Of a stretch of DNA of 64,000 bases, positions 18,555 through 27,936 are shown one piece after another. Both the position numbers and the translations under genes were made by a program. Under the pieces are notes generated by a model that did not search any database, was not told where the DNA came from, and worked only from the letters and a program-made list of their open reading frames with translations. Position 1 is the first letter of the stretch. Every line of letters begins with the position of its first letter. The DNA comes from an uncultured Clostridia bacterium (GTDB lineage Bacteria; Bacillota; Clostridia; Oscillospirales; Acutalibacteraceae): the NCBI GenBank assembly GCA_947166135.1, contig CAMVDB010000001.1, forward strand, positions 1 to 64,000, read 5' to 3'.

Positions 18555-19601
18555 TTATACAACTTTCTTTAAAACTGGAATCTTACTAAGTATAAAAGAA
18601 ATTAAGTATGACAAAACAACTGATACTATAAATACTACAGGAATATTAATTAAAGCGAAATCAATATTGACTATTTTTATAATCCTATACATAATTGTTT
18701 CAATTAAAACATGTATAGCATATATTCCTAAACTATATTTCGAAATGGAATTTATAAGATTATTAGTATGCATATTTTTAAATTTATCTTTTATAATTAC
18801 AAAAACTGCTACTGCTTGAAATAAAACATTAATATATAAATTTCCATGCATTTGCAAAGCTTTTCCTGTAGTATTTGAAAGTATATATGTTCCCATAATA
18901 GTTATCAGTACGCCAAATAGACCCAATATATATATTATTCTTTTATTCTTAAGTTCATAATTATTAATATACCAACCTAAAATAAAATATGTTGTAAAAC
19001 CACCTACATATTTTAATGATAAGTTATTTTCTATAATATCATTTATATGTTCAAATAAATTACTATAGTTACTTCCTATACTAATGATTTGTGGAATTAT
19101 ATATGTAAAAATTATAGATAAAATAATAAAATACTCCACATATTTTTTATTAGCATCATTTACCCATAATCGTAACAATGGAACTATAAGATATAGTCCA
19201 ATTATCAAATAAACAAACCATAAATGATAATATCCCTTAATTAAAGAACCTATAATCTTAATGATATCAATAGATTCATGTTTTATTATTGAACCTACTA
19301 TATTAAATATAAAACAATACAAAACCGACCAAAAAACAAAAAAAACAATCATTCTTATTATATGGTTAATTATTTTTTGAGTTGAAAATTGATAGTTCTT
19401 ATCAAGCATTAAAGCTCCTGATATCATAATAAATAATGGAACTCCTATTCTTGCTAATCCATTAAATATATTACTTACCCAAAAATTAAACGAACCAATA
19501 TCTTTAACAACATACTGTGCACTAGAATGAATCATAATTACTGAAAAGCAAGCTATTACCCTTAAGACATCTATGTAAACTATTCTATTACTTTTTGTCA
19601 T
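18555..19601 (-). CDS. Acyltransferase family 3 membrane protein
   Basis: RIVYIDVLRVIACFSVIMIHSS, multi-TM; strongly AT-rich compared with neighbours. Confidence 0.85.
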   Translation of the reverse strand: MTKSNRIVYIDVLRVIACFSVIMIHSSAQYVVKDIGSFNFWVSNIFNGLARIGVPLFIMISGALMLDKNYQFSTQKIINHIIRMIVFFVFWSVLYCFIFNIVGSIIKHESIDIIKIIGSLIKGYYHLWFVYLIIGLYLIVPLLRLWVNDANKKYVEYFIILSIIFTYIIPQIISIGSNYSNLFEHINDIIENNLSLKYVGGFTTYFILGWYINNYELKNKRIIYILGLFGVLITIMGTYILSNTTGKALQMHGNLYINVLFQAVAVFVIIKDKFKNMHTNNLINSISKYSLGIYAIHVLIETIMYRIIKIVNIDFALINIPVVFIVSVVLSYLISFILSKIPVLKKVV

Positions 19602-19673
19602 TTTATTTTCCTCCTCAATTAAACTATATTATATAATATTTTGACAATATTTCAATAATTTTTAAGAATTTTG

Positions 19674-19835
19674 TTAAATATAAATCAATTCATTACAAAT
19701 TCTTTCTTCAGCTTGATTTTTAATAGTATTCATAGTTCCACCCCAATAAAGCATATCTGTATTTTTTATTTCTTCGGTTAAATCACTATTATCTTTTAGT
19801 TGTTTATCGTATCGGCAAATGCCTATAGAAAGATT
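19674..19835 (-). pseudogene. TnpV-like transposon-encoded protein, C-terminal remnant
   Basis: Manual minus-strand translation: DKQLKDNSDLTEEIKNTDMLYWGGTMNTIKNQAEERICNELIYI*, resembling TnpV C-terminus. Confidence 0.5.
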
Positions 19836-20055
19836 CTGAAAGCTCAATGATCAACTTGATAGGGGATGCCCGGTTCGTGAACTCAAGCGGTCAAAAAACG
19901 GACAAATCTGAATATTTCCAGTGAGTCTAAATCTATTCGTTCTTTGTTCAAAAAAGCAGAAAAAGTCTGGAAAAATGAAAAAATCTAAAAATTTTTTAGT
20001 ATCGCATAGGAAAGCCATTTTTGAGGATATAAATCAAGCTTTTTTATAAAAAAAC

Positions 20056-20085
20056 TTGACAAATTTGGCGAAATAGGGGTATAAT
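20056..20085 (+). promoter_or_regulatory. Sigma70/SigA-type promoter
   Basis: ttgaca (20056-20061) N18 tataat (20080-20085). Confidence 0.75.
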
Positions 20086-20713
20086 GAGTATCAAGATGGA
20101 TAAGTATACAAAGATGGCAGGTTTTTAACCTGCTTTTTTTACTGCCTTCTTTTTGAAAATAATACTTCCGCAAATTGCAATAGCAAGTTGCAATTTGCGT
20201 TTATTTAAAATTGAATAGTTTATTGATATCTTGTCACTTGGTGACGGATGATTTGTCAGTGGGCTGGTGTAAAACATTTTGTTTTTACAACAGCCCTTTT
20301 TGCATTTGTGAAGCCGATGCGCTTTACCGGTCATGTGCCGGTAATGATCGTATCGGCTTTTTTAATTGAAAAAAATTGTTACTCGGAGGCTTTGAGCCTC
20401 TGTATTTCGGTTTGATACCGATCTGAAAACTGAATATTGAATGCTTTGGTTGAGCATAGAGCTAAGTACATTAATCGCTTCATCTTTTCGTAGATGAAAA
20501 CCGATCTTGTGCAGCCTTTCAATAATATGCCCGATTATCGCTGATGGGACCGGCTGCATAATGCCGGCGGCCTTGCTATGTCCTTGCCCTAACTCACTTT
20601 GGCGGAAAGGACATGTTTATGCGTTTCTTCTGGTGGCTTTGTTACGCCGCAAAGTATCCGTGATCTCCTTGTTTTGATTTGAGAACACATCAAAATTTAA
20701 AGGAGATTATTCT
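20086..20713 (+). promoter_or_regulatory. Long structured leader with several hairpins and internal terminator-like stems
   Basis: gcaggttTTTaacctgc+T7 (20117-20140); cgcaaattgcaa/ttgcaatttgcg (20169-20199); gggctg...cagccc+T5 (20261-20300); agccgat[ttaccgg..ccggtaa]atcggct+T (20312-20364). Confidence 0.6.
20613..20663 (+). CDS. Possible leader peptide MFMRFFWWLCYAAKYP
   Basis: ATG with upstream ggaaagg, 16 codons, stop 50 nt before next gene. Confidence 0.3.
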   Translation: MFMRFFWWLCYAAKYP

Positions 20714-21283
20714 ATGAAAAGATATTATATCGAAGTAACAGACAGAGAGTTTTGCGACGAGAAAAAACACTACTCTATAGACGGAAAGCGTGCCTTTGTT
20801 GAACTTTCGGGTAAGGAAGCGTATGACTACCTGGCAGAGCACAAGGACTTACGCTTCTACGAGACGAGTACTGCCGAAGAATTCGGTAATACCGTGTTCG
20901 TTGAGGTACCGAAGCATCAGATCAAGAATGCTGAAGCGTGGAAGAACCATGAGAACTATGTCAAGAGGACGATGAGGGAGTGTGGGCGCGAGGTCGTCAG
21001 CTTATCTCGTCCTATCACCGAAGACGGTGATTTTACTTTGGAAGATATCACCGGCAATTCTGACGAGTCCGTCGAAGATAAGGTGATTCGTAATCTTGAT
21101 CTCGAGATTTTGCACCGCGCCTTGCATTCGCTGAGCAAGGAAGAATATCGCATTATCGAATGTTTGTATCTGGCGGATGAGACCATGACGGAAAGAGCCT
21201 TGGCGCAAGTCTTAGGAAAGTCGCAGCCGTACATTCATCGACTCAAAATGAAGATTTTCGATAAAATCAGAAAGTTTTTTTGA
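20714..21283 (+). CDS. Sigma-70-like regulatory factor of mobile element
   Basis: C-terminal LHRALHSLSKEEYRIIECLYLADETMTERALAQVLGKSQPYIHRLKMKIFDKIRKFF resembles sigma region 4. Confidence 0.7.
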   Translation: MKRYYIEVTDREFCDEKKHYSIDGKRAFVELSGKEAYDYLAEHKDLRFYETSTAEEFGNTVFVEVPKHQIKNAEAWKNHENYVKRTMRECGREVVSLSRPITEDGDFTLEDITGNSDESVEDKVIRNLDLEILHRALHSLSKEEYRIIECLYLADETMTERALAQVLGKSQPYIHRLKMKIFDKIRKFF

Positions 21284-21338
21284 TTTTTCGGTTATTAATT
21301 AAGAATTATTTCACCTATAGGAGGTAGAGAGACGAAAA

Positions 21339-21371
21339 CGGAGAGGGCATGCTGAAAAACCGCCCTCTCCG
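21339..21371 (+). promoter_or_regulatory. Stem-loop in 5' UTR of replication-like gene
   Basis: cggagagggc...gccctctccg, 10-bp perfect arms. Confidence 0.7.
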
Positions 21372-21415
21372 AAAAACAAACGGTCGCTCAATCGAATTGC
21401 AAGGAGAATCAGATC

Positions 21416-22198
21416 ATGTCAGTACACAGAACGGACAAATCCAAGGGGGATTACACCCCGATGAGCAATCACCATTTGAGAGATATTAACCTTTCTTTGA
21501 AAGCAAAGGGGCTTCTGTCCTTGATGCTGTCGCTGCCCGAAAACTGGAACTTTTTCGCAAAAGGCTTAGCGACGCTATGTCATGAGGGTAGGGATTCGGT
21601 CGAATCCGGACTCAAGGAGCTTGAAAGGGAAGGTTATCTTCTCCGTCAGAGGATCCGTTCACCCAACGGATGCTTTAGCAACATTCAATATGAGATCTAT
21701 GAAGAGCCACTCCCAAAAGACAAAAGGTCAGCTCAACCAAAGCCGGGAAAGTCGGAACAGGACTTATCGAAGGAGGATGTACCTGTATCGATGAATCAGA
21801 CACAATTAAGTATAGAAAAACAAACAACTGATAAAGAAAAAGAAGAACAGAACGACGCATACCTGTGGCGCATTAGGATCGAGAACAATATCGACTATGA
21901 TAATATGGCCCAAAGGTATGGAGAGAGTACCATCGACCATCTTGTTGAGTTGATGTTGGAGGTCATTGTTTCGGAAAGTCCCTATTGCTATATTGCAAAA
22001 GAAATGCTGCCCAGAGAGATCGTGAGGTCAAGAATGCTCAAGATCAACTCGGATCATATAGAATATGTTCTGGATGAGGTTGCCCATACATCGAAAAAGA
22101 TCGGTAACGCTAAAGCGTATGTGCTGGCTGCCTTGTTCAATGCTCCGGTCAATATGGACAATCATGACCAATTTGAGATCAACAAAGACTTTCGGTAA
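21416..22198 (+). CDS. HTH replication-initiator-like protein (DUF6017-like C-terminus)
   Basis: MSVHRTDKSKGDYTPMSNHHLRDINLSLKAKGLLSLMLSLPENW; aligned by eye with 15510-16304 product. Confidence 0.65.
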   Translation: MSVHRTDKSKGDYTPMSNHHLRDINLSLKAKGLLSLMLSLPENWNFFAKGLATLCHEGRDSVESGLKELEREGYLLRQRIRSPNGCFSNIQYEIYEEPLPKDKRSAQPKPGKSEQDLSKEDVPVSMNQTQLSIEKQTTDKEKEEQNDAYLWRIRIENNIDYDNMAQRYGESTIDHLVELMLEVIVSESPYCYIAKEMLPREIVRSRMLKINSDHIEYVLDEVAHTSKKIGNAKAYVLAALFNAPVNMDNHDQFEINKDFR

Positions 22199-24561: not shown

Positions 24562-24662
24562 GCGGCAGTATGGTATACTTGAATCGGATTCAGGATGGTA
24601 TACTGCCGCAACGAGGGGACTTTTGGTCACTCGTACAAATGAAAGTTCAGGAGGTATACCAT
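24562..24662 (+). promoter_or_regulatory. Repeat cluster upstream of recombinase
   Basis: gcggcagtat/atactgccgc inverted repeat; atggtatact at 24570 and 24595; ggtataccat overlapping start codon at 24653-24662. Confidence 0.65.
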
Positions 24663-26304
24663 GAGATATGATACTTATGAGCAGCCTGAGCAGGTGTTAC
24701 GTACCTATAAGGCTGCCCTTTATATTCGACTGTCCCGTGAGGACGGCGACAAACCCGAGTCCGATTCGGTTGTCAACCAGAAGCGGATCCTCGACAACTT
24801 TATTACCGCTCAGCCGGATATCGGACTGGTCGATTACTATGTTGACGACGGCTATTCCGGCGCGACCTTTGACCGTCCGGCTTTCCTGAATATGATGGCG
24901 GATATCTATGCCGGAAAAATCGACTGCGTGATCGTTAAAGATAGCTCCCGCTTCGGCAGAAACGCTTCCGAGAGCGGTCGATTCATCGGCGAGATTTTTC
25001 CGAGGTTACAGGTACGATTTATTGCTGTGAACGACCTGATCGATTCGGGAAAGAGTCAAAGCATCGCGAGCGACTTCCTCAATGTAGGTTTCCGAGGACT
25101 CTTGAACGAATACTATTTAGCCGCGAATTCAGAGTCGATCCGTTCAACGTTGAACATGGAACGCAGGAAAGGCGAGTTCATCGGCTCTTTCGCAAAATTC
25201 GGATATCAAAAAGACCCGACCGATCGCCACAAGCTCTTGATCGACGAGCCTGCCGCCGAAATCGTGCGGATGATCTACAGCCTTTACTTGAGCGGTGTCG
25301 GCATCCGCGGGATCGTGCGCCGGCTCAACGAGCGCGGTATCCCGAATCCCTCGACCTACAAGAGAATGCAGGGGTTGAATTTCAAGGCTCGCACCGTCGG
25401 CGATTCAAGCCTGTGGTGTGACAAGACCGTGCGTCGTATCCTTTGTGACGAGATGTATATCGGTACGATGGTGCAAGGCAAAAATAAAAAGATCAACTAT
25501 AAGAGTAAAGCGATCCGCAGTTGTGTACCCGACGAGTGGATACGGGTAGAGGGAACGCACGAGCCGATCATCAGCAAGGACAATTTTGACCGTGTACAGA
25601 AGATGCTGAACACGGGTGTCAAAGGCACCGTACAAAGCGGGAATATCGACCTGTTTGCGGGGCTTCTGAAATGTGCCGGCTGCGGTCATGCACTGATCAA
25701 AAAGACAAATCATAATTCTGACAAGACTTATGTTTATTATCGCTGTTCGACGCATTGTAAGTGCAAGACCGCCTGCTCCGCGCACACCATCCGATATGAG
25801 CGGCTGTACTACTGCGTGCTGTACTGCATCAGGCAGATGGTAGACGCCGCGGTGAACGCCGACGAGGTGATTCATCGGATGGAAGAGAATCGGGTAAAGG
25901 ACTTGGATGAGGGTCTGAATAAACAGCTCGATAAGCAGGAGCAGGAATTGGAGAAGGTCCTGCAGAGGATGGCGGATCTCTACCCCGACTTCAAGGACGG
26001 CACGATCAACGCCGATCAGTATCGGATCATGAAGGAAAAGTACGAGCAGGCGCAGAAAGATCTGACCAAAAGCATCGAAAAACTTAAAGAATCCCTCGAC
26101 CGGTCGGATGGTGATCATGTCGCGACCAACGACTTTATCGAACATTTCAAGAAACACGGCAATATCAAGAGCCTCACCCGCCCGATCCTGACAGAGCTGA
26201 TCGACAGGATCGTTGTCCACATGGACGGAACGCTGGATATCACCTTCAACTTCTGCGATACCTTTGCGGATTTACAGGCTCAGACTCGGAAAAAGTCAGC
26301 GTAA
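24661..26304 (+). CDS. Large serine recombinase / site-specific integrase
   Basis: AALYIRLSREDGD, VDYYVDDGYSGATFDRPAFLNMMADI, recombinase and Zn-ribbon regions, coiled-coil. Confidence 0.95.
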   Translation: MRYDTYEQPEQVLRTYKAALYIRLSREDGDKPESDSVVNQKRILDNFITAQPDIGLVDYYVDDGYSGATFDRPAFLNMMADIYAGKIDCVIVKDSSRFGRNASESGRFIGEIFPRLQVRFIAVNDLIDSGKSQSIASDFLNVGFRGLLNEYYLAANSESIRSTLNMERRKGEFIGSFAKFGYQKDPTDRHKLLIDEPAAEIVRMIYSLYLSGVGIRGIVRRLNERGIPNPSTYKRMQGLNFKARTVGDSSLWCDKTVRRILCDEMYIGTMVQGKNKKINYKSKAIRSCVPDEWIRVEGTHEPIISKDNFDRVQKMLNTGVKGTVQSGNIDLFAGLLKCAGCGHALIKKTNHNSDKTYVYYRCSTHCKCKTACSAHTIRYERLYYCVLYCIRQMVDAAVNADEVIHRMEENRVKDLDEGLNKQLDKQEQELEKVLQRMADLYPDFKDGTINADQYRIMKEKYEQAQKDLTKSIEKLKESLDRSDGDHVATNDFIEHFKKHGNIKSLTRPILTELIDRIVVHMDGTLDITFNFCDTFADLQAQTRKKSA

Positions 26305-26630: not shown

Positions 26631-27308
26631 ATGATTCAGCGCATTTATCATGGTTCAAAGGACATCATTGAAAAGCCGAAGTTTGGCTACGGCAAGCGTT
26701 ATAACGACTACGGTCTCGGCTTCTACTGTACCGATTCCATCGAGATGGCTAAAGAATGGGGCGTGTCTTTAGACCGCGACGGTTTCGCCAATATCTATGA
26801 CATTGAGATGGAAGGCTTGAGCGTGCTTGATCTGAACAACGATGACTACTGCATCCTCCATTGGCTGGCGGTTCTGCTGGAGAATCGTGAGTTTGACGTC
26901 CCGTCCGGACTTGCCTTGGAAGCGAAGGAATACATCTTGAATAACTTCCTGATCGACTATTCAAAGGCAGATATCATGATCGGTTACCGCGCCGATGACA
27001 GCTATTTTTCCTTTGCGCAGGATTTCATCAACGGCACGATCTCCTACCGTCAGCTCAATAACGCGATGCACCTGGGCAAGCTGGGTCAGCAGATCGTCCT
27101 CAAGAGTAAAGAGGCATTCAAGCGCATACACTATGTCGGGAATGAGGTCGCTCTGCACAGCGAGTGGTACGCGAAAAAACAGCTTCGTGATAAAACCGCG
27201 CAGCGCGAATACTTCAATACGGAACGTAACAAACGACAAAGGGGTGATCTGTATATCACCACGATTTTGGATGAGGAGATGAAACCGCATGATCCACGCT
27301 TACGATAA
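26631..27308 (+). CDS. DUF3990-like protein, ADP-ribosyltransferase-fold toxin candidate
   Basis: MIQRIYHGSKDIIEKPKFGYGKRYNDYGLGFYCTDSIEMAKEWG; HGS...GLGFYCT...A..W pattern. Confidence 0.7.
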   Translation: MIQRIYHGSKDIIEKPKFGYGKRYNDYGLGFYCTDSIEMAKEWGVSLDRDGFANIYDIEMEGLSVLDLNNDDYCILHWLAVLLENREFDVPSGLALEAKEYILNNFLIDYSKADIMIGYRADDSYFSFAQDFINGTISYRQLNNAMHLGKLGQQIVLKSKEAFKRIHYVGNEVALHSEWYAKKQLRDKTAQREYFNTERNKRQRGDLYITTILDEEMKPHDPRLR

Positions 27309-27936
27309 GGTTTACCTTGAGAAAGCAAGAACGGCGCTGGGCAGGATGCTGGATTTCGCTGTATACGATCTTCATCTTGACTTGACGGAGTTTTGGAAAC
27401 GGTTTCTGGACAGCGACGTTTGTAAACGGTTTGAGCAAGGCGATTCCTCGCTTCTGGCAGGTATGTCAGGAATCGAAATGGCGTATGCTGTCATCGGTGA
27501 CACATCCGAACGTGTTCAGCCAAAGCCCTCTATGGATCGCTCCGAAGAATACTGGCTCGGCTGGGCGCTTGCGTACTACCAGTGGAATACAGGCATACCG
27601 TTTCGCGAGATTTTTGATGCGGAAGACATCATGAAGATCAAGGCGCTGTATTCTCCCTACCACGAAATGGATATCCGGCACTTCTGCGATCTGCTCGATG
27701 AAAGATACCTGAGCAACAGAACGACCAAGCTGAAGCAATACCGTCAGCGGGCGGGGCTGAGCCAGTCTCAGCTTGCCGAGGAGAGCGGCGTCCCGCTGAG
27801 AACGATCCAGCAGTATGAGCAGCGCCAGAAGAACATCAACATGGCGCGGGCTGAGTATGTAATCAAGCTGGCAAAGGCGCTGTATTGCGAACCCGAGGAG
27901 CTTCTGGAAAAAGTGGTTTCTTCAAAGCGGGTATAG
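27289..27936 (+). CDS. Antitoxin candidate with DUF3791-like N-terminus and XRE-type HTH C-terminus
   Basis: LKQYRQRAGLSQSQLAEESGVPLRTIQQYEQRQKNINMARAEYVIKLAKALYCEPEELL; 20-bp overlap with preceding gene. Confidence 0.75.
   Translation: MIHAYDKVYLEKARTALGRMLDFAVYDLHLDLTEFWKRFLDSDVCKRFEQGDSSLLAGMSGIEMAYAVIGDTSERVQPKPSMDRSEEYWLGWALAYYQWNTGIPFREIFDAEDIMKIKALYSPYHEMDIRHFCDLLDERYLSNRTTKLKQYRQRAGLSQSQLAEESGVPLRTIQQYEQRQKNINMARAEYVIKLAKALYCEPEELLEKVVSSKRV

Follow-up and report, generated by a model that had tools for sequence, protein, structure and literature searches.

The first 64,000 nucleotides of contig CAMVDB010000001.1 (assembly GCA_947166135.1), from an uncultured Clostridia bacterium and called the window throughout, contain a small integrative element of a clostridial genome, one of whose genes encodes a protein resembling region 4 of sigma-70 and is preceded by a long, highly structured leader. 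At its 3' end the leader carries a compact module (20577-20716) made of a hairpin (H1), a 14-codon open reading frame (ORF) and a second hairpin (H2). The combination points, with a probability of about two in three, to a leader-peptide translational attenuator of the element's sigma-like gene. These three parts are the key ones of the leader, and a preliminary description made from its letters alone had missed them. Dozens of gut and rumen Clostridia carry the same switch of peptide and hairpin. Conserved in front of sigma-like regulators, it would open to direct test the question of what wakes integrative elements in gut Clostridia.

A leader ORF between two hairpins

The module and the gene behind it consist of the following features, in which SD stands for Shine-Dalgarno sequence.

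20577..20615, + strand: H1 hairpin, whose 3' arm holds the SD of the leader ORF (AAAGGA, 20606-20611); z -4.1, part of covariance model R1
20619..20663, + strand: leader ORF MRFFWWLCYAAKYP-stop, 14 residues, with TGA at 20661-20663 and a conserved core from Trp 20634 to Pro-stop
20660..20710, + strand: H2 hairpin, which opens at the stop codon of the leader ORF and covers the SD of the sigma-like gene (AAGGAG, 20700-20705); -18.8 kcal/mol, z -4.6
20714..21283, + strand: sigma-like gene (the regulated gene), 189 aa, sigma-70-region-4-like; Pfam Sigma70_r4, E 7.9e-6

Two marks of a leader-peptide translational attenuator are a short ORF that has its own SD and a hairpin masking the SD of the gene that follows; the window has both, AAAGGA standing 7 nt upstream of the leader ORF and H2 covering the SD of the sigma-like gene. 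H1, the leader ORF and H2 are also the only parts of the leader with detectable homologues before other sigma-like genes, and H2 is its best conserved structure. H1 is followed by a T-run in most of these relatives; in the window there is no good one. The anatomy of the module, its conservation, the co-variation of its stem and the fixed geometry between stop codon and stem can be read directly from the sequences.

In all 69 loci the segment of H2 that pairs with the SD (the anti-SD) starts 0-3 nt past the leader stop. A ribosome whose A site holds a stop codon covers about ten nucleotides beyond it, so one that waits at this stop covers the whole anti-SD. The stop codon is itself paired within H2: TAA faces TTA in 30 of 30 cases and never TCA, and TGA faces TTA or TCA. 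The arms of H2 change in concert. When each of 26 non-redundant loci (no two H2 stretches more than 80% alike) was folded with its own arms the mean energy was -17.9 kcal/mol, against -11.7 kcal/mol with arms swapped between loci, and 11 of the 26 beat all 25 of their swaps. This test was used in place of RNAalifold on a MAFFT alignment, which, because the loop lengths misalign, recovered no more of H2 than its lower part, in which 2 pairs had changes on both sides. The preliminary description had proposed covariation across homologues as the check on the leader and its absence as the refutation; by arm swaps and stop-codon pairing the 3' module does co-vary, and the refutation fails there.

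The peptide is conserved as an amino acid sequence. Trp and the terminal Pro are the same in all 22 distinct peptides, and Ala and the second Tyr have each changed twice, whereas third codon bases are free to vary (CCG/CCA/CCT/CCC, TGC/TGT, TAC/TAT). The peptide persists where the sequence of the stem is completely different. An ATG lies 1-6 codons before the Trp in 55 of the 69 loci, with an SD before it in 50 of these 55 and 2 more cut by contig ends. Could the conserved stretch nevertheless be an untranslated RNA element, a riboswitch or a protein site, that reads as WxCYIAKYP by chance? Loci that have no nearby ATG (14/69) would fit such an element, but the retention of residues under changing third bases and the SDs in front of most start codons make it very improbable. 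We read these patterns as selection on both peptide and stem.

Recurrence of the module in other genomes

In a blastn search of 200 same-family genomes the leader matched scattered repeats and otherwise only through its last 75 nt (20634-20710), which precede other sigma-like genes in genomes G080 and G159. The 3' end was common to loci L003 and L006, and the remaining matches were a dispersed palindrome and a terminator. The peptide pattern W-L-C-Y-x-A-x-Y-P was present in 8 of 398 same-family genomes and the looser W-x-C-x-x-A-[KE]-Y-P-stop in 11 of 347 same-order genomes; the reversed patterns gave 0 in both. Combined with the first bases of H2, the peptide pattern found 39 stretches in GTDB contigs, mostly from gut or rumen Clostridia according to the database labels. 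The looser pattern also found 16 stretches in a viral collection, 9 of them real and 7 chance-like, without any stem.

Searches by peptide that required no stem still gave SD-masking stems, even of unrelated sequence (L100, L104, L110, L116 and L117), and a stem-only pattern that left the peptide unconstrained found 5 loci, all 5 with the peptide (L093 and L095 among them). The covariance model R1, built from 23 loci with the window left out, matches the window at 20574-20716 with 70.8 bits (E 3.9e-15 in 64 kb). It has matches in 15 of 149 genomes of the order, several with diverged peptides such as WQPYIAKYP-stop and WTAYAARYP-stop; its two weakest matches, L136 and L137, are doubtful. Peptides at minus-strand loci were taken by hand from the sequence. 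The leader of L018, the locus with the second-closest sigma homologue, encodes MLFEWQPYIAKFP-stop. Leader DNA had no match among plasmids and phages, and the 86-nt consensus module matched 2 plasmid and 3 phage records.

Several points weigh against the attenuator reading. The search patterns and the model favour the known peptide, so its conservation is partly selected for; the window peptide itself departs from the consensus, with Trp-Trp and with Ala for Ile; no ATG was present within 8 codons of the Trp in 14 of the 69 leaders, which makes their start codon unclear; and the geometry would be the same under coupling without stalling. The less biased evidence of conservation comes from the free positions, the stem-only matches and the diverged matches. 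Leaders that keep the Trp-to-Pro-stop core yet have no ATG within 8 codons include L051, L052, L056, L060, L091, L100 and L110, which suggests an unusual start codon or a longer ORF.

The main rival is plain translational coupling, whereby H2 is opened by any ribosome that terminates at the leader stop, the sigma-like gene is read in proportion, and the peptide neither stalls the ribosome nor senses anything. The stop codon adjoins the anti-SD in 69 of 69 loci, as coupling would have it, no special peptide is needed, and everything is accounted for except the conservation of the peptide. An invariant Trp and Pro and a near-invariant Ala and Tyr, kept across loci with differing stems and downstream genes, are left unexplained, and we regard coupling as unlikely.

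A proposed mechanism and its known counterparts

In the proposed attenuator, H2 would pair the nucleotides at and just past the leader stop with the SD of the sigma-like gene as long as the leader ORF is unread, and the gene would stay silent. If a ribosome arrived at the conserved Trp-to-Pro-stop end and terminated slowly, it would cover the 5' arm of H2; because the delayed ribosome occupies this arm, the SD would be free and synthesis of the sigma-like factor would rise. The factor could in turn direct transcription of the element genes and so activate the element. H1 covers the SD of the leader ORF and carries a T-run in most relatives; it could provide a second gate, on synthesis of the leader. 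A paused ribosome, then, probably switches on the element's regulator; that it stalls on the peptide, which signal it answers to and which genes the sigma-like factor transcribes are parts of the model that we infer.

A delay at Pro-stop seems plausible on such ribosomes by analogy, because TnaC, MsrDL and CliM of Clostridioides difficile are known to arrest at a stop codon. TnaC, which lies upstream of tnaA/tnaB and arrests at its stop codon, has a Trp 12 residues before its terminal Pro-stop. The module peptide likewise has a Trp upstream of Pro-stop, but at a distance of 8, before a sigma-like gene, and in a peptide of different sequence and length, so it does not belong with TnaC. MsrDL (MYLIFM) arrests at the stop codon in the presence of erythromycin (PMC10314930); it differs from the module peptide in sequence and length and acts on a transcription terminator. 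CliM arrests at its stop codon as well, and is a protein of about 76 residues with a KYxIW motif, encoded upstream of yidC (PMC13183943). Compared with the text of that report, the window peptide, with 14 aa and no KYxIW motif, is not a CliM.

The overall layout is that of the Erm-type attenuators. In ermC/ErmCL and its kin (PMC5118997), a ribosome stalled on a short leader ORF frees the hairpin-hidden SD of the regulated gene, and here too a short leader ORF is followed by a hairpin masking the SD of the gene it controls. ErmCL, however, stalls the ribosome inside the ORF, whereas in the module the conserved residues run up to Pro-stop, and the stop codon is itself part of the stem; the target here is a sigma-like gene of a mobile element instead of a resistance gene, and no macrolide response is known for it. 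An upstream ORF before topAI-yjhQ in Escherichia coli senses translation stress and controls the downstream gene (PMC12121999). This is again a short upstream ORF acting on its neighbour, in another host and on another target, and it is set beside the module by description. Leader-peptide control of mobile-element functions also has a precedent in the orf12/tet(M) leader of Tn916, where attenuation governs functions of a conjugative element; that attenuation is transcriptional, and the two are set apart by general description.

Attenuation by amino-acid starvation was rejected because the leader ORF has no run of repeated codons. The literature covered holds no relevant report of the peptide or of leader-peptide control of mobile-element sigma genes; subscription journals lie mostly outside that coverage, so the absence is no proof. 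The module is apparently unreported. It works like the leader-peptide attenuators, a known class, with a geometry anchored at the stop codon and with a peptide and a target that are both new. A wider proposal, tentative and with the odds leaning slightly against it, is that these are a new family of very short termination-arrest peptides (W-x-[CPA]-[YQ]-I-A-[KE]-Y-P-stop), sensors of the environment or of translation stress that activate sigma-like regulators of integrative elements across gut and rumen Clostridia. If so, a new and very short class would join the small set of arrest peptides, and translation stress, possibly antibiotics, would be tied to element activation.

Upstream stems and gene context

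The leader upstream of the module carries the following features.

20056..20085, + strand: predicted sigma-70 promoter TTGACA-18-TATAAT, likely start of the leader transcript; 12/12 consensus match
20116..20141, + strand: terminator-like hairpin and T-run, about 25 nt past the expected start; fold of 20105-20145 z -4.0
20169..20199, + strand: perfect 13-bp palindrome, a dispersed repeat; fold of 20165-20203 z -6.2
20261..20301, + strand: terminator-like hairpin and T-run; fold of 20260-20304 z -3.4
20310..20363, + strand: strong nested, terminator-like hairpin and T-run; -29.7 kcal/mol, fold of 20308-20366 z -7.1
20384..20402, + strand: 8-bp hairpin; fold of 20381-20406 z -3.8

The strong promoter, the serial terminator-like hairpins and the unusual amount of structure on which the preliminary description had dwelt are all borne out. 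The promoter matches the consensus in full; positions 19500-21500 hold 8 terminator-like sites, against 1.6 +/- 1.4 in shuffles; the named stems beat their own shuffles (z -3.4 to -7.1); and the whole leader (20092-20716, 625 nt) folds with a minimum free energy of -208.5 kcal/mol, z -10.3 against shuffles. Five of the 8 sites are on the + strand inside the leader (20116-20134, 20169-20199, 20231-20247, 20337-20357 and 20384-20402). Not all stems are leader-specific, because the 31-nt palindrome CGCAAATTGCAATAGCAAGTTGCAATTTGCG (20169-20199) is dispersed among genomes of the same genus and the same family (G1082, at four places; G1086, G1099, G055 and G196), and this stem probably has no special tie to the leader. 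The left end of the element was not located by comparison with 20 same-genus genomes, and the promoter may lie outside it.

Over 420 nt ahead of the leader Trp codon, relatives show 2.36 terminator-like hairpins where shuffles show 0.61, and because of this enrichment transcription termination at the upstream stems is plausible. The usual arrangement is H1 plus a single hairpin, strong and nested, between about -150 and -85. The window hairpins at 20261-20301 and 20310-20363 are comparable but farther upstream, with no sequence homology to those of the relatives. Could control be mainly transcriptional, with 20116-20141, 20261-20301, 20310-20363 and H1 as intrinsic terminators relieved by antitermination or leader translation, and H2 secondary? 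The enrichment in window and relatives and the T-run after the relatives' H1 speak for it, but the upstream hairpins have no sequence in common with those of relatives, one is a dispersed repeat, H1 of the window lacks a good T-run, and conservation is highest in H2; we consider it improbable. Of the multi-step attenuator suggested in the preliminary description, a regulatory leader of attenuator type is supported, its conserved part being the translational device of leader peptide and SD-masking stem. The processive antitermination leader suggested there, a cis-acting RNA that lets RNA polymerase pass several terminators, has no Rfam match in the window. An antisense-controlled plasmid replication leader and a stand-alone non-coding RNA, also suggested there, find no support: the window matches no Rfam 15 family at gathering score, and relaxed thresholds gave only chance-level matches in the leader. 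The direct target is the sigma-like gene, in place of the element excision once proposed.

In a subgroup of relatives the 5' arm of the upstream terminator can re-pair with a downstream segment (z -7.2 and -31 kcal/mol in L115); in the window such re-pairing is absent (z -0.1). The re-pairing segment stands 3' of the terminator in L018, L046, L050, L072, L097, L115 and L119, and the same seven loci share a GAGTAAGCGGAG-hairpin-CTACC segment 5' of it, all upstream of the leader. This arrangement has no Rfam match, does not occur in the window and is possibly a further regulatory RNA.

The genes of the element, all on the + strand, encode in order the sigma-70-region-4-like protein, an HTH_36/DUF6017 protein, a DUF6100-like protein, a winged-HTH protein and a large serine recombinase.

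24661..26304, + strand: large serine recombinase of the same element; Pfam Resolvase, Recombinase, Zn_ribbon_recom and DUF4368

A protein search of GTDB contigs confirmed no relatives of the sigma-like protein, and a six-frame search with it mostly matched the region-4 part of longer sigma factors. Among 10 tested proteins encoded downstream of the leader, 7 match sigma-70 (E <= 0.02), 2 match helix-turn-helix domains only and 1 has no match. Several relatives have on their upstream side UmuC-like or LexA-like genes and a small zinc-ribbon protein (the zinc ribbon judged by eye), followed in order by leader, sigma-like gene, pemK RNA, PemK toxin gene, and serine or tyrosine recombinase. From these neighbourhoods and downstream proteins, the switch therefore precedes a putative regulator of diverse integrative elements.

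Genes for a UmuC-like polymerase, a LexA-like S24 peptidase or an IrrE-like peptidase lie 5' of the leader-sigma module in L086, L071, L083 and L087, a hint of a connection to DNA damage. Rfam 15 matched only pemK RNA (RF02913) in 20 related loci, outside the leader; it stands 3' of the sigma-like gene in half of them (for example L046:2384-2447, L069:5292-5355 and L058:5554-5617), with a PemK toxin gene on its other side where checked. In the window the corresponding interval after the sigma-like gene has none. Directly 3' of the window's recombinase is a DUF3990 and HTH_3 gene pair (26631-27936), found at 91-92% identity in the same-genus genomes G1092 and G1097.
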